64,000 nucleotides of DNA. It comes from Diphasiastrum complanatum (Eukaryota > Streptophyta > Lycopodiopsida > Lycopodiales > Lycopodiaceae). A model generated the notes under the pieces. That model was given only the letters and a program-made list of their open reading frames with translations. It was not told where the DNA came from and made no database searches. Location of the stretch: the NCBI GenBank assembly GCA_029204225.1, contig CM055113.1:26215462-26279461 (forward strand), read 5' to 3'. This document shows, piece by piece, positions 18,191 to 63,309 of the stretch. The position numbers and the translations under genes were made by a program. How positions within the stretch are numbered: the first letter of the stretch is position 1; the number at the start of each line of letters is the position of its first letter.

Positions 18191-19197
18191 ACAAATATCT
18201 TGCAAAAGTGCAACACGTATACATGCATTGAGATATTTTATTGGATGTGGCTGTTGCTGATAGAACCATACAGTCACATTGTAGGTCTCACCTCTTTTAT
18301 TCTTCTGTTAACTATTATGTTTGAATTATTCTTATGTCATTGTAATGGATAATAATGTTGCGTTAATGCTTGGTGCAGATGTCTTTCCTTCAAATAGCTT
18401 CTATTGGCGAAATGTGAAGTCCTTCATTGAAAAATTCTCCGCCATACACGCCAGATATGGAGAGCTAATATATGGTGGGTTGACATCCTCTAGCATGATC
18501 AAAATGGGCATTTTCTTTTACGATCACAGGTACGAAGTTTAAAAAAAAAAACTTCGGCCATGACAAACTAGCATCACTTTCTGAGCCTACGATCGATTCT
18601 CATGAGTGGGTATGTGCTGACCAATTGAATATTGAATTAATGAAGAGGCAACTTCTCAAAGAGATTATTGGGAATACGAAGCCAACATTCGAATCCAAAT
18701 GAGTCTATTCTAGCATCTATGTGTCGATCACCGTATTTGTTGCCATATTTAAGGCTGTCCCCTTTAGGAAAACAAACACATGTGGGCTTGGGAAGCAACA
18801 GAATCATCACTATTGGATAACATATTTGTCGCATGGGATTCAAATGAAATGGAGCACAAAGGATATTTAATATGGTGTAAGCTCTCTTGCCAAACAATGA
18901 CCATAAGGTATCATATTTCATGTCAAATGTGCTCCTTAAGTTTTATCCTAGGCGATATAAGTTTGCGCATGGCCGATGGGATGCCTTGGACACTGAGACG
19001 AATCAGCAAGAGGCAGAAATATCCATACATTTGCCTCACGATGAAATATGAGAAGTTTATACTAACAGGGAGTGTAGCCTAGAAGATCTTCGGAATATGC
19101 TTGGATTGACCTGATGTGCCATGAAATTTTATCTTCACTCGTAATGGACAAAATGTAAGCCCCTAATTTAAAACAAGATCCTTGAATTTTACCTAGT
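18191..19197 (+). mobile_element. Leader and 5' internal region, copy A
   Basis: Matches 30608-31605 closely. An open stretch at 18321-18542 (SFYWRNVKSFIEKFSAIHAR) and scraps downstream are shared by both copies but match no gag I recognise. Homology with copy B stops at about 19192-19198, where copy A passes straight into a copia gag end. Confidence 0.5.
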
Positions 19198-19462
19198 GGG
19201 AACTCAATGGACACCTTGGAAGTGCGCCCTCCTACTAGGTCCCGTGGCCCAAGTTGTGCTTGTATACTTTGGTCCAAGAGCAATAAAGCTTCTATATCTC
19301 AAGTTGGAGAGCAGGAGGCTATGTTCTCAAAGGGCATGTTCAAGGGCAAGACCAAAGCCAAGTGGTGTAAAGGACAAGATCAAGGTGATCCCTCTACTTT
19401 TGTTGCGAAGAAGAAAGATAGATCTAAGCTAAAATGTCTATTGTAGAATGAAAGGACATTTT
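19198..19462 (+). mobile_element. Ty1/copia gag C-terminal fragment, copy A
   Basis: Encodes RPPTRSRG, a Lys-rich KGMFKGKTKAKW block and KKKDRSKLKC, the lead-in to a copia CCHC knuckle. The sister copy at 36880-37270 reads further into the knuckle (CFYCRMKGHFESH). Both then run into the same tandem units. A broken fragment. Confidence 0.7.
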
Positions 19463-19737
19463 GCATCACACGTGCACACGCACACTCTAAACTCTAAAAT
19501 CATAATACACACGAGGATTAAAAAAAAAACATAGTAGAGTGCTAATCAAAACTCCCGAACCATACGGTTATATCCTATTCCAGAACGTCACCACATGCTC
19601 GCTCCCTATGATGTTTGGGCTTTCTTGTGGAACTTATCGTCAAACAAGAAACATTTGAACCACACCTTTATCGGAAGAAAACAAGGGCTACACACCTTCC
19701 TAGAATTGGGAGTGTTGGTTAACTTTAACTCTTTCAT

Positions 19738-19841
<104 letters not shown>

Positions 19842-20313
19842 AATCTCTCGCTCTCTATTTCTAAGCATGAAAACATAACCAATACACAACACATAAACTA
19901 TGATCTTGTCAATTAAAATAACAGGACTAGGTTAAGATCCTACAAATGAGAGTAGCACAAACTAGTAAGCATGAAACATAAATCAAGATTCTTCGAATTA
20001 GGGTAGCAACAACTGGTAATCATGAAACATAAATGAATGGCATCACACATGCACACGCACACTCTAAACTCTAAAACCATAACACACACAAGGATAAAAA
20101 AATAACATAGTAGAGTGCTAATCAAAACTCCCGAACTATACAGTTATATCCTATTCTAGAATGTCACTACATGCTCCCTCCCTACGATGTTTGGGCTTTC
20201 TTGTGGAACTTATCGTCAAACAAGAAACATTTGAACCACACCTTTATCGGAAGAAAACAAGGGCTACACACCTTCCTAGAATTGGGAGTGTTGGTTAACT
20301 TTAACTCTTTCAT

Positions 20314-20315
<2 letters not shown>

Positions 20316-20346
<31 letters not shown>
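20316..20346 (+). repeat. (CT)n tract in unit 2
   Basis: Short CT run of about 31 bp at the same place in the unit; it explains why this unit is shortest. Confidence 0.95.
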
Positions 20347-20351
<5 letters not shown>

Positions 20352-20797
20352 AAAACATAACCAATACACAACACATAAACTAAGATCTTGTAAATTATAA
20401 TAACAGGACTAGGTTAAGATCCTACAAATCAGAGTAGCACAAACTAGTAAGCATGAAACATAAATCAAGGTTCTGCGAATTAGGGTAGCATGAACTGGTA
20501 ATCATGAAACATAAACGAATGGCATCACACACGCATATGCACACTTTATACTCTAAAACTATAACACACACGAGGATAAAAAAAAAGAACATAGTAGAGT
20601 GCTAATCAAAACTCCCGAACCATACAGTTATATCCTATTCCAGAATGTCACCACATGCTCCCTCCCTAGGGTGTTTGGGCTTCCTAGTGGAAGTTATTGT
20701 CCAACAAAAAAACTTTGAACCATGCCTTTATTGGAAGAAAACAAGGGCTACACACCTTCCTAGAATTGGGAGTGTTGGTTATCTTTAACTCTTTCAT

Positions 20798-20907
<110 letters not shown>

Positions 20908-21236
20908 AATCTCTTGCTCTCTATTTCTAAGCATGAAAACATAACCAATACACAACACATAAACTATGATCTCGTAAATTAAAATAACAAGACTAGGTTA
21001 CGATCCTACAAATCAGAGTAGCACAAACTAGTAAGCATGAAACATAAATCAAGATTTTGCAAATTAGGGTAGCATGAACTGGTAATCATGAAACATAAAC
21101 GAATGGCATCACACACGCACATGCACACTTTGAACTCTAAAACTATAACACACACGAGGATAAAAAAAAAAGAACATAGTAGAGTGCTAATCAAAACTCC
21201 CGAACCATATGGTTATATCCTATTCTAGAATGTCAC

Positions 21237-21843
21237 CTGCTCACCAAGGGAGAAACTCTTCCTCACATGGTTCTGGGGGAGGTTCTAATGGGAGACATGA
21301 TACTTTGACCGTATTCACCCCGATTTTGATCTCATCATCAAGGGTGACATGTTTTTGATTTGAGGTTCTCAATTCGAACTCTCGATTGGTTTCTCGAAGT
21401 AGGGAGATAGTTCCTCATTAGGAAAAATATGGGCTCAAAATGGGCCCTTTAAGAAATTTCACTTTCGAGAGAGGTTACGTAGAGAGAGAATGCAAACCGA
21501 AAACTTTTGGTCATCGTTTTTCGAGTTTTTGGCCTTGCCCGATGTTTAACTGGTATGGTTAAATTCAGACATTAGTTAGTTAATCTGGAGATGTAATAAC
21601 TCCTCTACATGCTTGTTTCAAAATTCGGGGCTAGAGCTTTAAGACTGTAAAGCTTGGTGTGCTGATTGCAAAAATTGAAGCGGGAGTGCAACGAGCACTT
21701 TTGAAATCTTTGTATGCTTACAGTGAAATATAAGGCCGGACGATTTTTCAGCACAACATAGACATTACAAAAGTAAGGTATGCTAGATCTATTCGGTTTG
21801 ACTTATTGTAGTTTGAAGCATTTACGGATTGTAGCTTTCAACA
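21237..21843 (+). mobile_element. TIR-family end and leader, copy A
   Basis: At 21416 the sequence CATTAGGAAAAATATGGGCT begins a stretch that matches the inverted-repeat element end at 58879 and 36210 (TGGGCCCTTTAAGAAATTT, then GAGAGAGGTTA). It leads into the unrecognised coding region at 21844. This suggests that the coding region belongs to a DNA transposon of that family. No matching right end was found. Confidence 0.5.
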
Positions 21844-22470
21844 ATGGAAAGGTTCCATTTGCATATTGCACTTCCTATGGAATGCACTCCAATTATTAAG
21901 AAAAATTCAAAAGTTGTAGAGAATGTTGCTGCTATAGTTAGAGAATTGAGAACGAATAATTATAAGAATATAGATTTGTGGTTGGATGGATCAATTTAGC
22001 CTAATGGTCCAGCTACCAATTTGTGTCCAGATTTTAAGTCTGTAGCTCATCTTCTCAGATTTGTATGTGAAGAAAATAGTAGATTACTTGGATATTGTCA
22101 AAGGTTGTGTGATATTGGAATGCATAGTGTATCTTGTATTAATCAACAATAACAGTTTGCTAATCAACAATTGCAACGTGCAAATCAACAATTTCTTCAT
22201 TATGTGCAACACACTAGTGCTGAAAACAATGCACTCAAGTATGCTATATCAGAGTTGAGTGTTACAGTCACTACTCTTCAGGGATCAGACCTAGAAATGT
22301 TAGAATCCATGGAGAAGTTGCGATCTGACAGTTTAAAATCTGTTGTTGATATAAAAGTTATCAAAACGACAATGATGACAAGAAAAAGAAAGAGAGTACC
22401 AATGAAGAATGTTGATGACTTATCTATCTACACACAACAGCAATCTGAAAAAAAAGATTTGAGCATTTAA
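21844..22470 (+). pseudogene. Unrecognised repeat-borne protein, part 1, copy A
   Basis: One frame runs from ATG at 21844 (MERFHLHIALPMEC) to 22470. It is interrupted by TAG near 21998 and TAA near 22150, each at a place where glutamine (CAG or CAA) fits the surrounding Gln-rich sequence. The second half (ANQQFLHYVQHTSAENNALK) looks helical and ends in a basic RKRKRV nuclear-localisation-like block. The second copy (39617-40230) shares both stops, so they predate the duplication. No family recognised. Its position next to a TIR-family end suggests a DNA-transposon protein. The following open region at 22571 may be a second exon or separate gene. Confidence 0.45.
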
Positions 22471-22570
22471 GTATGTTTTCTTATAAACAGTTTATTTGAT
22501 TTGTATTGGTCATACAAGTTTCATTTGCATTTGATAATATGCATTATCAATTTATTAAACATAATTCGAG

Positions 22571-23052
22571 TTTTATATGTCTGTTGCAGATCATTTTTGG
22601 TGGCAAAAAACTATTTAACAGATCGTTCATGCATCGGATCTTCTTTAAGACTTGTTTTACCAAGAAAGTCAGCAAAGGCAATGATGAAAAATGCTCGGCT
22701 TGAAAAAATAAAAAATGAAATTGCAGAGACTTTGAATAAGGTACAAACTTATTTGGATGCAAATGTGATACTAGGGGCATGTGATGTTTCTGGAATTAGC
22801 ATAAATGCTTATTCTACTATTTTTAGAGTAGTTAAAGAAGCCTTTTCTCAAGTGATAGTGAAGAAAACATATTTTCCTTGTCCATATCAGGTAAGATTAG
22901 CAAGAAATTATTATAATGACAGAATGTTGAAAGTAGTTGGCCAACCACTTCATATAACTCAATTATGTAAATCAGAATATGGTGAGTGCAATTACAATGA
23001 TTGTAATAATATTTTCCTTGATATTGAAAGTGTTCTAAAATACATTATTTGA
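22571..23052 (+). CDS. Unrecognised repeat-borne protein, part 2, copy A
   Basis: The open frame gives SFLVAKNYLTDRSC, then RKSAKAMMKNARLEKIKNE and GACDVSGISINAYSTIF. It ends with a short Cys cluster (CKSEYGECNYNDC). After its stop at 23050 the same coding style continues briefly (GKIIIVIKLDETEIIK), so the reading is probably interrupted there. CTGTTGCAG just before the start looks like a splice acceptor, which would make this an internal exon. Copy B at 40339-40796 is nearly identical. No domain recognised; a transposase-like protein is an inference from its repeat context and acidic DETE motif. Confidence 0.4.
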
Positions 23053-23149
23053 TTCTATAAACTAGACGAACATCAAAAAAATGGAAAGATCATTATTGTA
23101 ATAAAATTGGATGAAACCGAAATCATCAAAGGTTAAAAGTTGAAACGAG

Positions 23150-23330
23150 TGAGTCTCACGTCGGGGACTTTTGAACAAGATGCGCGTTGATTCGATATTC
23201 CGTTGGAAGAGGCTGATATCGCTTCAGCGCGCGTGAATGATTATGATCGGGGTGTCAAAAACCAGGTGCACATTGAATCGATATTGCATAAGAAGAGGTT
23301 GATATCACATCAGTGCACGAGAGGAGATTG
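23150..23330. repeat. Paired GCGCGTTGATTCGATAT hairpins
   Basis: Two imperfect inverted repeats lie side by side: TGCGCGTTGATTCGATATT (23180) against CTGATATCGCTTCAGCGCGC, and GTGCACATTGAATCGATATT (23265) against TTGATATCACATCAGTGCAC. The words match a motif repeated at 32.6-32.8 and 59.5-60.8 kb. The same pair occurs in copy B at about 40948-41095. Confidence 0.7.
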
Positions 23331-23811
23331 TCCTCTTGTGAAAGTATTTGCTTCCAGCTCTCTATTCCGAGGTGCACACCTCTTTCTTAGCTGGGTTTTT
23401 CTCTTGGAAATAAAGGTTGTATCGTTTCTAATTCGAAATTTGGCCTTGGAAAAACTTTCAACAATTTCTTGGTGGGATGTATTATGTGAATCATCATCAT
23501 GCACAATCCAATTGAATCCATAACATGAATTCACATTCTTGTGAGCACTCGCTTTCATCAAACTTATATCATAATCTAGCACGCTAGCATGGATCTCGGT
23601 ATATTTACTATTCTTCTCAGTAAACGCTTTCAAGAAAACTGAGCCACAATCATTTAAGCCTTCTTGAATGTCAATCACACATTCACAATTCAGTTTCTTT
23701 CTAGCATCCTTCTTGAAAGCAAAAAAAAAATGTCACATTTTCATCAAAGTCCATCACTTCGAAGCACCACTTATAATTATAGTCAATCTCAACAAAATTG
23801 TCCAATTCACC
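23310..23811 (-). pseudogene. Unrecognised minus-strand coding region, copy A
   Basis: The minus-strand frame has CVIDIQEGLNDCGSVFLKAF, a HDDDSHNTSHQE acidic/His block and FISKRKTQLRKRC. Copy B (41202-41658) has the same peptide and extends it upstream. I do not recognise the family. It faces the plus-strand regions at 21844-23052 across the hairpin motifs, so the two could be convergent genes of one transposon or separate insertions. Confidence 0.35.
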
Positions 23812-30595: not shown

Positions 30596-31605
30596 TTGGC
30601 GCCAGTACGGTGAATATCTTGCAAAAGTGCAACACATATACATGTGTTGAGATATTTTATTAAATGTGGTTGTTGTTGATAAAACCATACAGTCACATTG
30701 TAGGTCTCACCTCTTTTATTCTTGTGTTAACTATTATGTTTGAATTATTCTTATGTCATTGTAATGGATAATAATGTTGCATTAATGTTTGGTGCAGATG
30801 TTTTTCCTTCAAATAGCTTCTATTGGCAAAACGTGAAGTCCTTCATTGGAAAATTCTCCGCCATACACGCCAAATGTGGAGAACTGATATATGGTGGGTT
30901 GACATCCTCTGGCGTGATCAAAATGGGCATTTTCTTTTATGATCACATGTACGAAGTCCAAAAAAATACTTTGGCCATGGCAAACTAGCACCACTTTCTA
31001 AGCCTACGATTGATTCTCATGAGTGGCCATATGCTGACCAATTGACTATTGAATTAATGAAGAGGCAACTTCTCAAAGAGATTATTGGGAATACAAAGCC
31101 AACATTCGGATCCAAATGAGTCTATTCTAGCATCTATGTGTCAAACACTGTATTTGTTGCCATATTTAAGGCGGTCCCCTTTAGGAAAACAAACACCATG
31201 TGGGCTTGGGAAGCAACATAATCATCACTATTGGATAACATATTTGTCGCATGGGATTCAAATGAAATGGAGCATTAAGGTGTAAGCTCTCTTGCCAAAC
31301 AATGACCATAAGGTATCATATTTCATGTCAAACGTGCTCCTTAAGTTTCATCTATAGGCGACATAAGTTTGCGCATGGCCGATGGGACGCCTTGGAAACA
31401 GAGACGAATCAGCAAGAGGTGGAAATATCCATACATTTGCCTCACAATGAAATACGAGAAGTTTATACTAGCAGGGAGTGTAGCCTAGAAGATCTTCGGC
31501 ATATGCTTGGATTGACCTGATGTGCTAGGAAATTTTGTCTTCACTCGTAATGGACAAAATGTAAGCCCCTAATTTAAAACAAGATCCTTGAATTTTACCA
31601 AGTAA
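30596..31605 (+). mobile_element. Primer site, leader and 5' internal region, copy B
   Basis: Counterpart of 18177-19191, starting with TTGGCGCCAGTAC. The SFYWQNVKSFIGKFSAIHAK open stretch (30740-30988) is shared. It ends at the copia LTR at 31606. Confidence 0.55.
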
Positions 31606-32027
31606 TGTTGAATGCATATAGAAGAATTATCAATTATGTGTCTAGTTTTGTAGATACGGAGACGAGGCGAAAAAGACCAGAATTGTGTTTCATTTTTACA
31701 ATCAGGGACATTAGGAGTCAATGGGAATAAAGGATTTTATGTAATGAAATGTAGAAAGCACAATTGGTAGAAATCAATAATAAACTTCATTGTTACTGTT
31801 TACAAGGTACATTAATGTTGACAGTTGTGACCAGCTGTCAGTAGCCGTAGGCTAGTCTATTAGTCTACTCGTAAGTTTTCTCTCTCTATCAGAGATTCAG
31901 AGTCTATTTGTACATCTTACATTCTGTAGAAGTTAGAGCGATAGTGTGATAGTGAGTCTTCTTCTTCCGCCTTCTTGTGGTGATTGCTTATGGTGAATGC
32001 TTGATGTTGCATATCTAATTATTGACA
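31606..32027 (+). mobile_element. Ty1/copia LTR, 422 bp
   Basis: TGTTGAATGCAT start and AATTATTGACA end, directly followed by TGGTATCTAAGCAG, a close match to the initiator-tRNA-Met primer site. It begins exactly where copies A and B stop matching, so it marks an insertion into copy B. Confidence 0.8.
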
Positions 32028-36209: not shown

Positions 36210-36800
36210 CATTAGGGGAAATTTAGGCCCAAAATGGGCCCTTTAACAAATTTGGCTTTAGAGAGAGGTTACAGAGAGAGAGACTAGAAATCGGTACCAT
36301 TTGATTACCGTTTTTCTAATTTCCAGTAATGCCTGCATTCTTAGAACTAGCTCTAACTTCAGACATTAATTAGTTAAGTGTGTTTGTAATAACAACCATA
36401 CATTTGTCATATAATCTGGGGCTGTAAACGTCTACCAATAAATTACAACATGGTACCTGCGCCTAAAAATAATGAATGGTCTATCATTAAAGCCTAATGT
36501 TCATCGAATTCCATACCTAGAGATATGATACATTCACGGAAACTCATGAGGCTCCGCTCTACATAAGCGCAAACATGACAATAAAAAAACTTTACGTTCG
36601 AATTTCACGTCCAATTATCGATTCAGCGCGTTCACAGATCATTCGGATATCCTTCAGCCATGGCGGGTCACGTGGCATGCACCTTGGCCTAGGAGGCGGT
36701 GGTGGAGGACGAGGTGGTGGTGGATTTCCTTGGTGGCCTCCTTGCATTGGGACACCTCCAAGATGAATTTGTGATGTTTGCTTTGTGCGAGCCATTTGCA
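36210..36800. mobile_element. TIR-family element piece, related to 58878-59490
   Basis: Begins CATTAGGGGAAATTTAGGCC and AAAATGGGCCCTTTAACAAA, the same end as the element at 58879. The match continues through TCTGGGGCTGTAAACGTC and TGGTACCTGCGCCTAAAA to the GC-rich segment at 36660-36795. The right end was not found; copia gag follows. Confidence 0.75.
36592..36795 (-). CDS. 67-aa ORF with histone H3-tail start (MARTKQT)
   Basis: A minus-strand ATG at 36795 opens 67 codons ending in TAA at 36592. Residues 1-7 are MARTKQT, identical to the histone H3 N-terminus including the K4 position. A Gly/Gln segment, a proline run (residues about 25-37) and PWLKDIRMICERAESII follow. That last piece can be loosely aligned to the H3 alpha-N region (ALREIRRYQKSTELLI), with LKDIR against LREIR. 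The related element at 58878-59490 carries the same start (MARTKQT) but its frame is interrupted after eight codons. This may be a captured H3 or CENH3 5' segment, a TE-encoded H3-tail mimic, or chance. I see seven identical residues; any function is inference. Confidence 0.5.
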   Translation of the reverse strand: MARTKQTSQIHLGGVPMQGGHQGNPPPPRPPPPPPRPRCMPRDPPWLKDIRMICERAESIIGREIRT

Positions 36801-36879
36801 AATCTCTCCCCCTCCCTATGGGCACCCTCCTCCCCTCATATGGATGGCAAATGGCACCCTCCAATACACTATGGAGTTC

Positions 36880-37270
36880 CATGCACAACCAATGAGAAAG
36901 AGAGAGGCCTAGGGGAGTTAAAGAACCTTCATAGGCTTATGGAAGGTCAAGAGACTTCTTCCACAACCTATGACTCTTTGAATATCTTGCTTGTGGGAGT
37001 TGGGAACTCAATGGACACCTTGGAAGTGCGCCCTCCTACTAGGTCCCGTGGCCCAAGTTGTGCTTGTATACTTTGGTCCAAGAGCAATAAAGCTTCCATA
37101 TCTCAAGTTGGAGAGTAGGAGGCTATGTTCTCAAAGGGCATGTTCAAGGGCAAGACCAAAGCCAAGTGGTGTAAAGGACAAGATCAAGGTGATCCCTCTA
37201 CTTTTGTTGCGAAAAAGAAAGATAGATCTAAGCTAAAATGTTTCTATTGTAGAATGAAAGGACATTTTGA
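36880..37270 (+). mobile_element. Ty1/copia gag C-terminal fragment, copy B
   Basis: Counterpart of 19198-19462 but with more gag upstream (ELKNLHRLMEGQETSSTTYD) and the start of the CCHC knuckle, CFYCRMKGHFESH. It then runs into the tandem units. Broken. Confidence 0.75.
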
Positions 37271-37540
37271 ATCACACGTGCACACACACACTCTAAACTC
37301 TAAAATCACAATACACACGAGGATTAAAAAAAAACATAGCAGAGTGCTAATCAAAACTCCCGAACCATACAGTTATATCCTATTCCAGAATGTCACCACA
37401 TGCCCGCTCCCTATGATATTTGGGCTTTCTCATGGATGTTATTGTCCAACAAGAAACATTTGAACCACGCCTTTATCGGAAGAAAACAAGGGATACACAC
37501 CTTCCTAGAATTGGGAGTGTTGGTTACCTTTAGCTCTTTC

Positions 37541-37614
<74 letters not shown>

Positions 37615-38087
37615 AATCTCTCGCTCTCTATTTCTAAGCATGAAAACATAACCAATACACAACACATAAACTACGATCTTGTAAATTAAAATAACAGGAC
37701 TAGGTTAAGATCCTACAAATCAGAGTAGCAAAAACAAGTAAGCATGAAACATAAATGAAGGTTCTGCAAATTAGGGTAGCATGAACTGGTAATCATGAAA
37801 CATAAATGAATGGCATCACACATGCACACGCACACTCTAAACTCTAAAACCATAACACACACGAGGATAAAAAAAAAAACATAGTAGAGTGCTAATCAAA
37901 ACTCCCGAACCGTACGGTTATATCCTATTCTAGAATGTCACTACATGCTCCCTCCCTACGGTGTTTGGTCTTTCTTGTGGAACTTATCATCAAACAAGAA
38001 ACATTTGAACCACACCTTTATCAGAAGAAAACAAGGGCTACACACCTTCCTAGAATTGGGAGTGTTGGTTAACTTTAACTCTTTCAT

Positions 38088-38166
<79 letters not shown>

Positions 38167-38613
38167 GAAAACATAACCAATACACAACACATAAACTAAG
38201 ATCTTGTAAATTATAATAACAGGACTAGGTTAAGATCCTACAAATCATAGTAGCACAAACTAGTAAGCATGAAACATAAATCAAGGTTCTGCGAATTAGG
38301 GTAGCATGAACTGGTAATCATGAAACATAAACGAATGGCATCACACACGCACATGCACACTTTAAACTCTAAAACTATAACACACACGAGGATAAAAAAA
38401 AAAGAACATAGTAGAGTGCTAATCAAAACTCCCGAACCATACGGTTATATCCTATTCTAGAATGTCACCACATGCTCCCTCCCTAGGTGTTTGGGCTTCC
38501 TCGTGGAAGTTATTGTCCAACAAAAAAAATTTGAACCATGTCTTTATTGGAAGAAAACAAGGGCTACACACCTTCCTAGAATTGGGAGTTTTGGTTTTCT
38601 TTAACTCTTTCAT

Positions 38614-38675
<62 letters not shown>

Positions 38676-39000
38676 AATCTCTTGCTCTCTATTTTTAGGC
38701 ATGAAAACATAACCAATACACAACACATAAACTATGATCTCGTAACTTAAAATAACAAGACTAGGTTATGATCCTACAAATCAGAGTAGCACAAACTAGT
38801 AAGCATGAAACATAAATCAAGATTTTGCGAATTAGGGTAGCATGAAGAGGTAATCATGAAACATAAACGAATGGCATCACACATGCACACACACATTCTA
38901 AACCCTAAAACCATACCACACACGAGGATAAAAAAAAAGGAACATAATAGAGTGCTAATCAAAACTCCCAAACCGTACGATTATATCCTATTCCAAAATG
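37271..39000 (+). repeat. Tandem units of about 525-542 bp with CT tracts, copy B
   Basis: Three whole units and a partial one start at 37271, 37813, 38338 and 38874. They have the same architecture as 19463-21236. CT tracts lie at 37545-37612, 38091-38163 and 38616-38673. Confidence 0.85.
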
Positions 39001-39616
39001 TCACCTGCGCACCAAGGGAGAAACTCTTCCTCACATGGTTCTGGGGGAGGTTCTAATGGGAGCCATAATAATTTGACCGTATTCACTCCGATTTCGATCT
39101 CATCATCAAGGGTGACATGTTTTTGATTTGAAGTTCTCAATTCGGACTCTCGATTGGTTTCTCGAAGTAGGGAGATAGTTCCTCATTAGGGAAAATATGG
39201 GCTCAAAATGGGCGCTTTAAGAAATTTCACTTTTGAGAGAGGTTACGTAGAGAAAGAATGCGAATCGGAAACTTTTGGTCATCGTTTTTCGAGTTTTTGG
39301 CCATGCCCGACGTGTAACTGGTATGGTTAACTTCAGACATTAGTTAGTTAATCTGGAGATGTAATAACTTCTCTACATGCTCGTTTCAAAATTCGGGGCT
39401 AGAGCTTTAAGACTGTAAAGCTTGGTGTGCTGATTGCAAAAATTGAATTGGGAGTGCAACGAGCACTTTTGAAATCTTTGTATGCTTACAGTGAAATATG
39501 AGGCCGAATGATTTTTCAGCGCAAAATAGACATTACAAAAATAAGGTATGCTAGATCTATTCAGTTTGACTAATTGTAGTTTGAAGCATTTACGGATTGT
39601 AGCTTTCAACAATAAA
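39001..39616 (+). mobile_element. TIR-family end and leader, copy B
   Basis: Counterpart of 21237-21843. The CATTAGGGAAAATATGGGCT end is at 39184. Confidence 0.5.
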
Positions 39617-40230
39617 AAGGTTCCATTTGCATGTTGCACTTCCTATGATTCCAATGCACTCCAATTATTAAGAAAAATTCAAAAGCTGTAGAGAATGTTG
39701 CTGCTATAGTTAGAGAATTGAGAACGAATAATCATAAGAATATAGATTTGTGGTTGGATGGATCAATTTAGCCTAATGGTCCAGCTACCAATTTGTGTCC
39801 AGATTTTAAGTCTGTAGCTCATCTTCTCAGATTTGTATGTGAAGAAAATAGCAGATTACTTGGATATTGTCAAAGGTTGTGTGATATTGGAATGCATAGT
39901 GTATCTTGTATTAATCAACAATAACAGTTTGCTAATCAACAATTGCAACGTGCAAATCAACAATTTCTTCATTATGTGCAACACACTAGTGCTGAAAACA
40001 ATGCACTCAAGTATGCTATATCAGAGTTGAGTGTTACAGTCACTACTCTTCAGGGATCAAACCTAGAAATGTTAGAATCCATGGAGAAGTTGCGATCTGA
40101 CAGTTTAAAATCTGTTGTTGATATAAAAGTTATCAAAACGACAATGATGACAAGAAAAAGAAAGAGAGTACCAATGAAGAATGTTGATGACTTATCTACA
40201 CACAACAGCAATCTGAAAAAAAAGATTTGA
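39617..40230 (+). pseudogene. Unrecognised repeat-borne protein, part 1, copy B
   Basis: Second copy of 21844-22470. It lacks the start ATG (ATA instead) and has a 4-bp insertion near its beginning. The interior TAG and TAA stops are shared with copy A. The open part 39943-40230 reads QQFLHYVQHTSAENNALK and ends after a basic RKRKRV block. A 3-bp difference near 40195 changes the end relative to copy A. Confidence 0.45.
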
Positions 40231-40338
40231 GCATTTAAGTATGTTTTCTTATAAACAGTTTATTTGATTTGTATTGGTCATACAAGTTTCATTTGCATTT
40301 GATAATATGCATTATCAATTTATTAAACATAATTCGAG

Positions 40339-40796
40339 TTTTATATGTCTGTTGCAGATCATTTTTGGTGGCAAAGAACTATTTAACAGATCGTTCATGC
40401 ATCGGATCTTCTTTAAGACTTGTTTTACCAAGAAAGTCAGCAAAGGCAATGATGAAAAATGCTCGGCTTGAAAAAATAAAAAATGAAATTGCAGAGACTT
40501 TGAATAAGGTTCAAACTTACTTGGATGCAAACGTGATACTAGGGGCATGTGATGTTTCTGGAATTAGCAGAAATGCTTATTCTACTTTTTTTAGAGTAGT
40601 TAAAGAAGCCTTTTCTCAAGTGATGGTGAAGAAAACATATCTTCCTTGTCCATATCAGGTAAGATTAGCAAGAAATTATTATAATGACGGAATGTTGAAA
40701 GTAGTTGGCCAACCACTTCATATAACTCAATTATGTAAATCAGAATATGGTGAGTGCAATTACAATGATTGTAATAATATTTTCCTTAAAAATTGA
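40339..40796 (+). CDS. Unrecognised repeat-borne protein, part 2, copy B
   Basis: Second copy of 22571-23052, differing at a handful of codons (for example IVKKTY to MVKKTY). It ends NNIFLKN* where copy A continues for ten codons. The CTGTTGCAG acceptor-like sequence is kept. Function unknown. Confidence 0.4.
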
Positions 40797-41201
40797 AAGT
40801 GTTCTAAAATACATTATTTGATTCTATAAACTAGACGAACATCAAAAAAATGGAAAGATCATTATTGTAATAAAATTGGATGAAACCGAAATCATCAAAG
40901 GTTAAAAGTTGAAACGAGTGAGTCTCACGTCGGGGACTTTTGAACAAGATGCACGTTGATTCGATATTCCGTTGGAAGAGACTGATATCGATTCAGCGCG
41001 CGTGAATGATTATGATCGGGGTTTCAAAAACCAGGTGCACATTGAATCGATATTGCATAAGAAGAGGCTGATATCACATCAGTGCACGAGAGGAGATTGT
41101 CCTCTTGTGAAAGTATCTACTTCCAACTCTCTATTCCGAGGTGCACACCTCTTTCTTAGCTGGGTTTTTCTCTTGGAAATAAAGGTTGTATCATTTCTAA
41201 T

Positions 41202-41677
41202 TCAAAATTTGGCCTTGGAAAAACTTTCAACAATTTCTTGGTGGGATGTATTATGTGAATCATCATCATGCACCCAATTGAATCCATAACATGAACTCAC
41301 ATTCTTGTGAGCACTCGCTTTCATCAAACTTATGTCATAATCTAGCACGCTAGCATGGATCTCGGTATATTTACTATTCTTCTCAGTAAATGCTTTCAAG
41401 AAAACTGAGCCACAATCATTTAAGCCTTCTTGAATGTCAATCACGCATCCACAATTCAGTTTCTTTCTAGCATCCTTCTTGACAGCAAAAAAAATATGTC
41501 ACATTTTCATCAAAGTCCATCACTTCAAAGCACCACTTATAATTATAGTCAATCTCAACAAAATTGTCCAATTCACCAATTATAGTTCCTTCTCTATTGA
41601 GTTTCTTTGCATTCTTTTTGACTCTTTTCTCCCCAACACTTATAAAAATAAATTTCATCCAAAGAGATCAATGGAGC
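41202..41677 (-). pseudogene. Unrecognised minus-strand coding region, copy B
   Basis: Extends the copy A peptide upstream: MKFIFISVGEKRVKKNAKKL, IDYNYKWCFEVMDFDENV, then a frame change into CVIDIQEGLNDCGSVFLKAF. A fragment of the same upstream part lies at 9350-9470, so it is a dispersed repeat. Family not recognised. Confidence 0.4.
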
Positions 41678-58281: not shown

Positions 58282-58877
58282 CTAGTACTCATCAACATCA
58301 GCTGCACATGCACCAACCAATTTGTACAAATACTCCTTGATGTGTGCTCGAGAGATTTTTGGAATAGATATTGATCTTTCGAGATCATATCCACATTTCT
58401 TTACCATCTTTTTTGCCTTGGTTTTCCATGCATAAATCACAGCATTAATATCTACATCTTCTACACCTTAAATTGTTTGAAACCCAGTCTTTTGAAAGAC
58501 AGTCTTCGTATAATTCTTTGTTGTCAATTGGATTGTTTCCACGTCTCCGAGTGGAGTTAGGTTCATACCATAATGCTTTGAGTGAAGTGGCCATACCATC
58601 AGCATTGGTCCCTACTCCGACAACCTTTGCCATCCAGAATGAGGCTCGTGCTACAACATCTTCATCTGGAGGTCGTCGTATTGCAACAAATTTGTTCATT
58701 GCAAACTCTCTACTAAGTATGAATTCCGATAATGGTGCATCTCCTTTCCATCCGCAATAATGACGAGGTAAGAGTTCTATTGTATCCATTTCGACTTCAA
58801 TGTTCACATTAGAAGGCATGCATCCTGAAGGTTGAAAAGCAATCGTAAAAGATTGTGGCCAAAATGTAGTTTGGTTG
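58282..58877 (-). pseudogene. DUF7869-like gene, C-terminal part
   Basis: The minus strand reads FWPQSFTIAFQPSGC, LLPRHYCGWKGDAPLSEF and KFVAIRRPPDEDV. ARASFWMAKVVGVG and LKALWYEPNSTRRRGN, a small beta-rich module like the C-terminus of DUF7869 proteins, follow. A frame change near 58470 leads to INAVIYAWKTKAKKMVKKCG and a TAG at 58282. It is cut from the rest of the gene by the TIR element at 58879-61269. The linkage rests on order, strand and family resemblance. Confidence 0.6.
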
Positions 58878-58878
58878 C

Positions 58879-61269
58879 ATTAGGAGAAATTTGGGCTCAA
58901 ACTGGGCCCTTTAAGAAATTTGACTTTAGAGAGAGGTTAGGTAGAGAGAAAATGAAAACCGGTACTGTTTGGTTGCCGTTTTTTGAATTTCCAATATTGC
59001 CCACATTCTAACTACTGTGGTTAAAACTAGCTCTAACTTCAGGCATTAATTAGTTAAGCATGCTTGTAATAACAGCCATACATTTGTCATATAATTCGGG
59101 GCTGTAAACGTCCACTAATAGTAATATTACATCATGGTACCTGCGCCTAAAAGTAATGAATGGTCTGTCAATAAAGAATAATGGCCACCAAATTCCGTAC
59201 CTAGAGATATGATACGTTCACGGAAACTTACGAGGACAATCATTTCTGAAGCTCCGCTCTACATAAGCACAAACATGACAATAAAGAAAACTTTACGTTT
59301 GAATTTCACGTCCAAATATCGATTCAGCACACGCATAGATCATTCGGGTATCCTTCAGTCATGGCGGGTCACATGGCGTGCCCCCTTGGCCTAGGAGGCG
59401 ATGGTGGATGACGAGGTGGTGGTGGATTTCCGTGGTGGCCTCCTTGCATTGGGACATCTCTATGTTGTTTGCTTCGTGCGAGCCATTCGCGGACCCAATA
59501 TTGGATCAGCGCGCGCGTAGAAAGTCAGCAACTGTAGAATGTAGGTCGGGCACGCCAAACCGACATCAGACAAAACAGTCGGAAACTAGGCGATATCGGA
59601 TGTTGCACGCGGGAGTCCGGAACAGGAATATCACGATTGGGTCGGACACGCTGAACTGATATTGAAAACTCAAACTTTTGAAAGACAGCTCAAATTGAGA
59701 CGATTACAATGCCATTGGAAAGCCCTCGACAAGAGCTTTTCAAAACATCCAACATGACCCAATTTTGAGATACGGTTAATGAGATATTATCAGTCAAAGT
59801 TTTGGGCGATAAATAGTCAAAGGTCAACATAATATCGGATCTGCGAGTGGTTGACCAGTTTGACCCGGTAAAATCCTAAGGGCACGCGTCGATCCGATAT
59901 TAGAGTTTTCAACTTTTTTTTTTTTCAAAGAGCTTGACGAGAGCTTCGCAACGGCACCAGAATGACCTAATTTCGAGTTACAATTCAAAAGTTATAGGCA
60001 GTCAAAGTTTTGGGGCCTATAACTTTTGAACCGTAACTCAGAATTAGGTCATTCTAGTGCCGTTGCGAAGCTCTGGTCGAGCTCTTTCCACAAAAAAAAA
60101 AATGAAAACCTTAATATTGGATCTACGTGCGCCCTTAGGGTCTGACCGGGTCAACTGGTCAACCGCGCGCCATCCGATATTAGGTTGACCGTTGACTATT
60201 GACCGCCAATACTTTGACTAAGAGTATCTCTTTAACCGTACCTCGGAAGTGGGTCATGTTGGGTGCCGTTGAAAAGCTCTCGTCGAGGGCTTTCTAATGG
60301 CATTGTAATCGTCTCAATCCAGGTTGTCCTTAAAAAGTTACCATTTTTTTTGTAACAACAGGCAATATCGGTTTAGTGCGCCCGACCCAATCGTGATATT
60401 CTTATTCCAGACTCCCACGTGCCCATCCGATATCGCCTAGTTTTCGAATTTTCTGTCTGATATTGGTTCAACGCGTCCGACCTACATTCTATAGCTGCTG
60501 ACTTTCTACGCGCGCGTTGATCCAATACTGGGTTTGCGAATGGCCTCTGGTACTAAATGAAAACCAAATGAAATATTCTAATTTTTAGAGGGGATATTCT
60601 AGATTTTTCCTTTGACGTGGAGGCAGCCGCTTCTAATCTACAAAGATTTCAAAGTGTGTGATCGTCCAAAAAACAAAGATCAGCATGGGAAAAGTATGAA
60701 GACTCGGGTTATCGATTTGGCGTGCGCCTCCTATACTGCCTCACTATTGATCTGTACACATGCGCGTTGATCCGATACTAGGACATCGCATCGCCCGCAC
60801 CAAACAAACTGCTCGTCTTCATCCTGGTCGGCATCAATGGTTCCTCTTGGTCTCCAATCGTGTGTCGCCATTAGTCCAAGATATCTCTATGGAAGTTGAG
60901 TATGAATGAGAACAAAGAGAATGAGAGGTATACGTAAGAATGACAAGAAGTTCCTAAACTACATGGATTAGTTAACTACAGTTTATAACTATTTACGTCA
61001 AATCAACCTCGAGTGTACAAATATGGGCAACAAAAGAGTATTCGGGCAGTAATTGTGGTCCAATCACAATCGTTTGTACTGCCCGGCAGGATTTTTGAAA
61101 ATCACCAAAATTTGACCAGGAAAGGCAAAAGCAATTTCCATCCGTCAACCACTGTTACAGTTCGTCACAGATGGACACCATTGATTTGGCCACTTAAGTG
61201 TTGAAAGCGTGCGAAGTTGAAAAAAACATCTTGACAAAGGGCCCATTTTGAGTTCTAATATCCCCTAAT
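58879..61269. mobile_element. TIR element with a large foldback, about 2.4 kb
   Basis: The left end ATTAGGAGAAATTTGGGCTC with TGGGCCCTTT is mirrored at the right end (61222-61269, reverse complement ATTAGGGGATATTAGAACTC with TGGGCCCTTT). That is about 34 bp of imperfect terminal inverted repeat. The interior holds a degraded MARTKQT start (minus, near 59485) and the hairpin at 59483-60544, but no transposase, so the element is non-autonomous. Target duplication is unclear; AT on both sides is the best candidate. Confidence 0.75.
59483..60544. repeat. Foldback: inverted arms of about 520 bp
   Basis: Arms run about 59483-60000 and 60014-60544, centred near 60010 (AAAAGTTATAGG against CCTATAACTTTT). 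Matching words occur along the whole length: CCATTCGC/GCGAATGG, GTAGAAAGTCAGCA/TGCTGACTTTCTAC, GAGACGATTACAATGCCATT and its complement. Arms differ by scattered substitutions and small indels. RNA from it could form a long hairpin. Confidence 0.88.
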
Positions 61270-63309
61270 ATATACTGATAGTGGCAAATTCTTTTGTTTT
61301 GTGAGGTACTCAAGAAGTTTTGTGTTTTCATCCACAGATGAGAAATTTTGGTCTTTGTATTCTGGATACTTCTCGCACATATATTGTCCATATTTATGAA
61401 AGGATATCAATCCTTTCATCTCATCATTGTCCAGTTCATTTGTGGGTGCCAAAAAGATCACTTCCTCTTTTGAAGACCAAGAGTGCAACAATCTGAAAGG
61501 TTCACTCCATGTATCGTCTCCATCAGTGCAATAATACTTCCACTGCATGGTTGGTTCGCCATTCAACATTTGAAAATGAAAGTAGTGAGAATTGGTGTGT
61601 CCTTCTAGACCATCATTTCTATGAACAATAAATTGCTCTATGAATCCTTTCCAATCCACCATTCGTTCTAACAAGTCTACTTCAGTACTTTCAGTATGAC
61701 CACCACCTATCTTTTGGCTAATTCGTCCTAACATATCAGGCATAGTAAGAACGAATTTACATTTCAATGTCCTAGAGATTACACTAAAAACTTGATCGAT
61801 TTCTTCATGCATGTGTTCGACCATCAAAAATTCCATTTCAACAGTCTGAAATATGTTATGTGCCACAAGCATAGAACAAAGACCAGAGATGAACCTATTT
61901 TTATTTTCCCTCCAACAGTTGTCAGCTTGAATATGTAAGATGGGAGGGAGATTGTCACGTGCAAGTTGCACCTTTCGTATTGCTCGGATAATGGATGTGA
62001 CCACCTGATTGCTGTCATGCAGATGCAAGGTGTCTATCCACACATCACAGAGAAATTTGAATTCGTGAATTAGCACTCCACAAACATGTGTTTTCAAAAA
62101 ATGGTTACCCTCCAATCTTGGAGGAGTCTTTTTGAAGTGGGGCAATGTTGTTGTATTTTGATCCATGCCATCAATAATAAGGCACAACGATTGCTCTGGA
62201 TGTGATCTTGATTCTTCTTTCCAATATGTGTATAGCTTTCTCGAGTCAAAAACATGCAATAAGTGTCGATTTCTCGTTGCAATATGGCGATCTCGCACCT
62301 TAATATCAGTATAAGTTTTGATTTAATTTTTTAGCTCATCACAAATCTTGCATTTGGACATTCTTTTTTTTGTTGGAGTCTTGACATATCGAAACTCATG
62401 TCTCCACAACCGATACAATGTATTTCTAGAGATTGTGGACATGCTAGTTTCTTGAAGTTCTTTGTTGATGGAATTGAAGACATCACCTTTAGACATGCCA
62501 AGAGGGAGATGATGTTCACAATGAACTACTCCATGTAAGTGATTTTGCGTATACATAATTTCTTACAAAAAGGCTGCATCAAAATTCCTTTTATATGTTG
62601 TAGCGATATATTGCATTGGACTCTCAAAACTTTTCTTGTGTGATTGACCAACTCTTGATACAGATTCTTTTAACATTTCATTCCAATTACCTATCTCGTC
62701 ATCTTCATCAAAATCAAATATAGAAAAATCTGAATCATGTTGTCTAGAAGCTGTAGAAAGCAATGCTGCAGAGGATGCACCTGTTGTCTTTTTGGATTGT
62801 CTTGCCATTTGAGAAAGTCTATGACTGTGACTGTCGGTGATAGCATTTGCTTGAGATGGATTGCAGTGTCCATTTTCCTCATTAACATTTCTCATATGCA
62901 TGAATAAGTTTTAACTAGACCCATTTCGCCGAGATACATTATTGTTAACCACATTGTCTATCCCAGTTAGGATTTTTGAGTTGTATGTCGATCGTGTCAG
63001 ATCATAACCAGTTGCATCGTCCACGCCTGTCAAAACATCAGAGTTGTACAGAGCTGGTCTTGTAGCAGTGCTATCAGTCACATCATGAGCATTGATATCA
63101 TCCACACCGGTGAGAACATCCGAACTATACCTAATCCGTTTGAAGTTTGCACTATTATTATGATTGACATCTTCCACGCCAGTGAGAAAATTAGAATTAT
63201 ATGTTGTTTTTGTTGATGTTCTCTTGTCGTGATTGAAGGTAGTTGTACATTGCATACGTGTTGATGATCTGTTGTAATTGCGATCATAATATGTGTAATA
63301 CTCATTCAT
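61270..63309 (-). pseudogene. DUF7869-like gene, N-terminal and catalytic-like part
   Basis: A single minus-strand frame runs from 63309 to the element junction, closed only by three TAA codons (62911, 62563, 62323), each where CAA (Gln) would fit. Order: a four-fold LTGVDD repeat (62945-63205), a Ser-rich acidic linker, a Cys motif with basic flank (KKRMSKCKICDELK), then the conserved core CLIIDGMDQNTTTLPHF, ILHIQADNCWRENKNRF and HMHEEIDQVFSVISR. Core acidic residues D, D and E suggest an RNase H-fold transposase-like enzyme, but that is inference. I recall this core as the family called DUF7869 (repeat-rich in plants and invertebrates). The real start is uncertain; 63392-63682 may be an upstream exon. 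Confidence 0.6.

Follow-up and report, generated by a model that had tools for sequence, protein, structure and literature searches.

Probable histone H3-derived relics on a group of DNA transposons in Diphasiastrum complanatum

The open reading frame considered here, which begins with the first residues of the histone H3 tail, is best understood as the decayed remnant of coding sequence that derives from histone H3 and travels on a group of DNA transposons, a reading to which we assign a probability of roughly 0.78. It lies in a 64,000-nucleotide stretch of DNA (the window, meaning the whole stretch analysed), where the first-pass annotation had described a transposon-borne frame of H3 type. 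This description is borne out by a genome-wide family of elements, by a second H3-tail relic carried on them and by H3-like genes in a large repeat with a related end.

The MARTKQT start is present as annotated, on the minus strand from 36795 down to 36592, where it opens a frame of 67 residues (c1) that translates as MARTKQTSQIHLGGVPMQGGHQGNPPPPRPPPPPPRPRCMPRDPPWLKDIRMICERAESIIGREIRT followed by a stop; the frame opens with MARTKQTSQIHLGG, passes into a proline-rich segment and closes with PPWLKDIRMICERAESIIGREIRT. The second, more decayed minus-strand copy announced near 59485 is also real: c2, at 59486, reads MARTKQTT and then a stop, and its frame is damaged by an 11-nt deletion and a 1-nt insertion. 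Since 3 of the 19 ORF changes between c1 and c2 are synonymous (25% expected) and the changes fall on the three codon positions as 7/7/5, coding constraint is not apparent between them. A degenerate search, with one mismatch, added a third copy absent from the earlier annotation, c5 at 60790 on the plus strand, which reads I-ARTKQTAR-LHPGRHQWF... with ATC for the start codon ATG. The DNA upstream of c5 is homologous to that of c2 (score 49 against 30.5 for the best of 300 shuffles), and the homology continues more weakly downstream (c1/c5 score 32, best shuffle 29), while the nucleotide similarity of c1 and c5 past codon 13 is not significant (p 0.90). The features concerned are as follows.

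36210 to 36241, plus strand: A-type terminus of the c1 element, CATTAGGGGAAATTTAGGCCCAAAATGGGCCC
36592 to 36795, minus strand: c1, side-A H3-tail relic, MARTKQTSQIHLGG...PPPP...WLKDIRM..., 67 aa
58878 to 61270, no strand assigned: small transposon of about 2.39 kb with inverted termini, holding c2 and c5 and sitting inside a DUF7869-domain coding frame
58878 to 58909, plus strand: A-type terminus of that element
59293 to 59486, minus strand: c2, side-A relic of the second element, MARTKQTT and a stop, frameshifts thereafter, W codon replaced by TGA
59448 to 60582, no strand assigned: internal palindrome between the two relics, 79%, 1.1 kb, whose mirrored start at 60540 (plus strand) reads MASGTK and a stop
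60790 to 60906, plus strand: c5, side-B H3-tail relic, IARTKQTARLHPGRHQWFLLVSNRVSPLVQDISMEVEYE and a stop, the family majority being MARTKQTARLHPGPHQWF...
61239 to 61270, minus strand: B-type terminus of the 58878-61270 element, ATTAGGGGATATTAGAACTCAAAATGGGCCC
39184 to 39215, plus strand: c3, related terminus of another element of the same kind
21416 to 21447, plus strand: c4, related terminus in a segmental copy of the c3 region

The element at 58878-61270 belongs to a family of small DNA transposons with CATTAGGG-type ends, side A of which carries the relic MARTKQTTRIH(P/L)G...PPPP...WLKDIRM, many members having on the other side (side B) a second relic that begins MARTKQTARLHPG; both relics read outward. 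In the window it splits a DUF7869-domain gene (61255-62298 and 58448-58879, minus strand, E 3.5e-47), the halves of which join in one frame, and the frame is restored when 58880-61269 is left out. The element has inverted terminal repeats of 34 bp (82%). At this element, the only one checked, no target-site duplication was seen, in that no word longer than 2 bp is shared and the frame rejoins without one, nor was there an 8-bp target duplication of the kind that marks hAT elements. Its ends, like those of L040-L054, have a subterminal hairpin and CTAA followed by T on both sides in inverted orientation. A Helitron, with a 5' TC end and a single 3' CTRR end with a hairpin, was considered and rejected for the window element, of which both ends are of the CTAA/hairpin type and inverted, and the same inverted arrangement in the 6 of 15 larger loci with both ends located also contradicts it. 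The element is thus neither a clean Helitron nor a usual terminal-inverted-repeat element. The arms of the palindrome (59490-60545) contain GATCCGATATTGG-type words, which recur beside the starts of both relics and may be protein-binding repeats.

The c1 relic is half of another element copy, with an end at 36210 and other DNA beyond the start codon, the translation of which contains a putative gag-like zinc knuckle, CFYCRMKGHFESH, a name that reflects a reading of the translation alone. The junction upstream of c1 (36795-36830, into the gag-like sequence) is found also in three other copies, L002, L003 and L004, on the same contig, C22, and the c1 variant has therefore itself been duplicated. 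Elsewhere in the window a segmental duplication of 4.6 kb at 94% (19197-23811 and 37001-41577) holds 0.5-kb tandem copies with long (TC)n arrays between them.

The search that had been proposed for further copies of the frame revealed an element family spread through the window's own assembly (1.74 Gb). From 871 first-look candidates it gave 40 scored side-A matches, c1 and c2 included; the other 38 were retrieved, with L001, which is the c1 locus, left out of the side-A counts, and near-identical loci (for example L035/L038/L039, L019/L020 and L030/L031) were kept, the counts being of loci, not of independent events. MARTKQT is exact in 18 of the 40. In fifteen loci of 8 kb (4 kb on each side of the relic), A-type ends (CATTAGGRGAAATTTGGGCTC) lie on the side of the relic and B-type ends (CATTAGGGGATATTAGAACTC) opposite; six loci have both ends located, 1.4-3.2 kb apart, which gives the size of the small elements, seven have a single end, of A type except in L049, where it is of B type, and two have none. 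A c5 homologue with its start codon region occurs in 8 of the 15, and L040 retains just the part before the start. The side-B majority is ATG GCC CGC ACC AAA CAA ACT GCT CGC CTT CAT CCT GGC, and MARTKQTAR is exact in 5 of 20 side-B places, ten smaller duplicates of larger loci having been left out of the side-B counts.

The differences between the two sides concentrate at third codon positions and so suggest an old constraint at the level of protein: over codons 1-13 they are distributed 2/0/7 when codon 12 is taken as CCT (third position 7/9, p 0.008) and 2/1/7 when it is taken as CTT (7/10, p 0.02), CTT being as common as CCT (10 vs 9 rows). Counting against an H3-derived origin, the third-position pattern between c2 and c5 extends a few codons upstream of the ATG, as would be expected had the methionine lain inside a longer frame. 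An upstream frame containing DPILG.R was tried as proof of a longer protein and rejected: within 42 nt, 10 of 12 changes fall on third positions, but the share drops to 12 of 22 when the stretch is widened to 63 nt, and the pattern is absent between c2 and c6.

An H3-like gene with both tail and fold is present in a larger repeat. When histone H3 was compared with the genome, the best 150 of 6,060 candidates were scored, giving 154 matches (150 listed), and the counts are accordingly lower bounds: at least 13 ordinary full-length H3 genes at 97-99%, at least nine matches at 79-93% (eight of them C-terminal pieces, the other interrupted by stops) and at least 128 H3-like matches at 44-57%, distributed over all 24 large contigs (C1-C24) and several small ones, with open frames of up to 440 aa. 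All seven of the H3-like loci read, out of these at least 128, code for an H3 core such as PHRKRRIAKWLQDIRSYQKSVKFLIPSAPFVRLVKEIVDEFSLGNRV...LARRLRRER. The 440-aa frame of L065 opens with MSEEMAWTKQTARDPRV; some 290 inserted residues, rich in turn in Q, S/R and proline, then separate the tail from a fold that is recognisably that of H3 (Pfam PF00125 Histone, E 2.3e-25; PDB H3.1, E 3e-24). MSEE-MARTKQTAR (MSEEMARTKQTAR) stands in five of six further N-terminal pieces (L066-L069 and L073, reading MSEEMARTKQTARDPRVTALLHRDALAT(L/F)DERERR or similar); L070 is cut before the tail, and in L065 the tail is MAWTKQTAR, with W for R2. In a genome search with this N-terminus the best 150 of 407 candidates were scored. 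Compared with the ARTKQTARKS of H3, the large-repeat protein retains ARTKQTAR in five copies, has DP in place of K9 and S10, and is preceded by MSEE. Among six copies read through the Q-rich part, L065 is open throughout, C10a, C13, C8 and C6 have stops and C17 has a frameshift; C156 has a stop-free frame of 417 aa reported at both tail and fold and read at the tail alone, and at C12 and C4 stop-free frames of matching length, 399 and 366 aa respectively, are likewise reported at tail and fold.

Around the first ATG of the H3-like gene the bases at -3 and +4 are C and T, and around the ATG of MARTKQTAR both are G, in all five copies with upstream bases, so that by the start-context rule the second is presumably the better-placed start. 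Because of this better context, leaky scanning that exposes the H3 N-terminus is possible; a start at the second ATG could, to judge from the sequence, expose it exactly. A transposase was not found; in Pfam, the remaining four frames of L065 belong to no family. A frame of 224 aa upstream of the H3-like gene (L065 2395-3066, plus strand) is without a Pfam match and is possibly the element's own protein; similar DNA occurs in L071 and in the window at 18194-19197 and 30607-31768. The three ordinary H3 genes that were read (L062-L064) have A31, Y41, S87 and L90, which we take to be a mixture of plant H3.1 and H3.3 residues.

The large repeat is represented in the window by three pieces, beside which no histone part was seen.

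30607 to 31768, plus strand: large-repeat piece, upstream of the H3-like gene, 87% to L065 2085-3262
18194 to 19197, plus strand: second large-repeat piece, 88% to L065 2091-3099
11716 to 12124, plus strand: degraded left end and first part of an element of the larger type, 85% to L065 1250-1686

Its left end, CATTAGGGCCCTTTTTGGACTCAAAAAGGGC, begins at the same base in both of two copies with unrelated flanks; a right end was looked for and not found. Past the shared first bases, this left end resembles six small-element ends, of which c3 and c4 represent a single duplicated locus, more closely than shuffled sequences do (p 0.0005-0.002); without gaps, small and large ends agree at only 16-21 of 32 bases. 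This kinship of the termini bears directly on the strongest of the alternatives, namely that the small elements acquired their tails straight from an H3 gene of the host, with no involvement of the large H3-like repeat. Such separate captures would explain why the tail codons of the side-B copy L041 differ from those of the H3 gene L063 at four third positions only, and why the small relics continue with H(P/L)GG, nearer to the KSTGG of H3, where the large gene continues with DPRV. We nevertheless consider them unlikely, given not only the related termini but also the word WL[KQR]DIR, which with proline-rich sequence is common to side A and the H3-like proteins, where H3 itself has ALREIR.

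The same word clarifies a further claim, that the frame past its proline-rich linker resembles the alpha-N helix of H3. Taken directly against H3 this resemblance does not stand: the alignment gives p 0.29-0.48, with 116 of 425 comparable frames in the window scoring equally high, and residues 36-67 of three side-A copies give p 0.27-0.71. It stands in an indirect form, through the H3-like protein (WLQDIRSYQKS): against two H3-like proteins of the genome (2 of the 7 copies), the six comparisons of residues 36-67 give p 0.001-0.021, the window ORF scoring p 0.002 with L061 and p 0.021 with L056, and its two sister side-A copies p 0.001-0.017 with the same pair. Past the tail, the likeness of the window ORF to the H3-like protein is short and lies in proline-rich sequence. 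In Pfam the 67-aa frame has no histone match at E<=10 and hence no H3 histone fold, and the short ORF and the side-B frame together gave no result against Pfam, NCBIfam and PDB (best PDB E 1.1, best Pfam E 0.5). The best match in the window to the H3 core (residues 10-136), at 20.8 bits, falls within the range of 20 shuffles (19.2-23.5). Rfam and tRNA scans gave no result, and none of 44 pattern matches in viral contigs or of 588 in bacterial and archaeal contigs was confirmed as a relative.

Could the MARTKQT start simply have arisen by chance in one transposon and been copied with it? Markov models of the window predict 3.7-5.9e-5 occurrences of ATG plus ARTKQT in a stretch of this size, or about 0.9 per Gb, and for this reason a lone MARTKQT in a 1.74-Gb genome would be unremarkable. 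A length of 67 aa is ordinary too (114 of 1,819 ATG frames in the window are at least as long), and the short ORF decays neutrally, such that from the window alone the start would count as chance. It is the rest of the genome, with its side-B relics and H3-like genes, that raises it above chance: the side-B relic opens with nine residues, MARTKQTAR; a repeat with a related end holds an H3-like gene that has this tail; and when nine codons of the tail are compared among three H3 genes, an H3-like copy and a side-B copy (both of the latter picked for their intact tails), all differences are synonymous. Together these observations make a chance origin very unlikely, and the earlier reservation that similarity to H3 genes might be lacking is removed.

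No more probable, in our estimation, is that the H3-like family consists of host genes, for example a fast-evolving variant of CENH3 type, which spread without a transposon and lie near repeats by accident. The fold of seven copies shows 24 synonymous, 23 non-synonymous and 1 stop change from the majority, and the synonymous share of 24/48 exceeds the expected 0.232 (p 4.6e-5) with changes treated as independent, which they are not, being counted per copy against the majority so that shared changes enter more than once. As judged from these substitutions, the H3-like fold shows apparent purifying selection, as host genes would; the tail has too few changes for such a test. The LIPxAPF motif in the fold, which we take to recall plant CENH3, also favours the host-gene explanation, as does the identity of L056 to a maize CENH3 sequence (51/98), nearly as high as that to H3 (53/98). 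The protein shares with plant CENH3 a MARTK start, a divergent tail and this motif, and differs from it in aligning with higher scores to the genome's H3 (260-263, against 194-224 for two CENH3 sequences). The suggestion that the end of an H3 or CENH3 gene had been captured is upheld as regards an H3-derived origin; between the two sources, the scores favour H3 and the identity to CENH3 is nearly as high. Against host genes spreading on their own stand matches that cover contigs C1-C24 without exception and several small contigs besides, a pairwise difference of 3-6% among copies (means of 2.7% for the tail part, 4.8% for the middle, 4.3% for the fold and 5.7% beyond the stop), and the left boundary common to both copies despite unrelated flanks.

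The short side-A frame itself decays neutrally, without coding constraint: non-CpG changes over the whole frame in 40 copies fall on codon positions 1/2/3 as 131/121/115, so that it fails the test of constraint that had been proposed for it. Hence, even with an intact 67-aa frame in c1 and a weak lean towards third positions in the first codons (first seven of side A 4/6/10, third position 10/20, p 0.09; first nine of side B 4/5/13, third position 13/22, p 0.012), the proposal that the window ORF is a working mimic of the H3 tail is scarcely credible, because the frame as a whole is unconstrained, a frameshifted side-A subfamily with an 11-nt deletion has itself multiplied, and the full frame is retained in 7 of 40 copies, three of them near-identical.

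Returning to an H3-derived relic as the preferred explanation, we would envisage that a forerunner of these elements acquired an H3-type gene from its host, and that the first residues of the tail were retained for their protein sequence, K9 and what follows being lost. In all three forms of the tail R2, K4 and R8 are retained and K9 is replaced by D, I or L. The large form would have lost K9 and S10 and acquired a long inserted linker, and large elements may have made an H3-like protein until recently, or may still do so; the small elements would have lost the body of the gene and been moved by the enzymes of another element. The most likely role for such a protein would be to present an H3-like N-terminus together with a histone fold to chromatin factors of the host, and it could enter nucleosomes, or bind H4, H3 chaperones or readers of H3K4/R2, without offering an H3K9 for silencing. 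That the group thereby encodes its own K9-less H3 variant as a means of counter-silencing, its copies carrying marks of K4 type and not of K9 type, is a tentative and on balance doubtful extension.

In carrying fragments of host genes, the present elements are akin to Pack-type elements (Pack-MULEs and gene-capturing Helitrons), which are likewise non-autonomous DNA elements. They differ from these in their CATTAGGG ends with a subterminal hairpin and in the lack of a target duplication at the window element; CTAA followed by T after a hairpin recalls the 3' end of a Helitron, but is present on both ends in inverted orientation. Closer in content is a hAT transposon of Pyrenophora tritici-repentis that carries an H3-like gene, H3L (PMC3538342). 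There, too, the gene lies between inverted ends, in tens of copies and with a shorter non-autonomous form, although the host is a fungus, the element has a hAT transposase with a dimerisation domain, and the available sections of the account mention no long insert between tail and fold (PMC3538342). The elements described here, by contrast, lie in a plant genome of 1.74 Gb; no transposase was found for them, the tail of the large form is some 290 residues away from its fold, and the small forms have decayed, outward-facing tails. Histone H3 has also been captured by hAT elements in Pseudocercospora, Cercospora and Sphaerulina, with amplification to hundreds of copies in P. fijiensis according to the sections available (PMC6710886); in the present case the H3-like fold still has a synonymous excess among its copies. 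Among the literature matches listed, titles and abstracts described no H3 capture outside fungi, a search whose coverage leaves out most subscription journals. Capture of H3 by transposons is thus already known in fungi, and the present case differs as a variant of it.

Ordinarily it is transposons that histone marks target. With a mobile family multiplying an H3-like gene whose tail start is intact, whose K9 is exchanged and whose fold is conserved, mobile DNA would have a direct means of acting on the silencing machinery, and H3 capture would be shown for a lineage other than that of the fungal hAT elements. The survival of the same tail in three forms, with the loss of K9 as their common feature, provides sequences that can be put to the test. 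In short, fragments of a protein that packs chromosomes seem to have been dispersed through this genome by mobile DNA.
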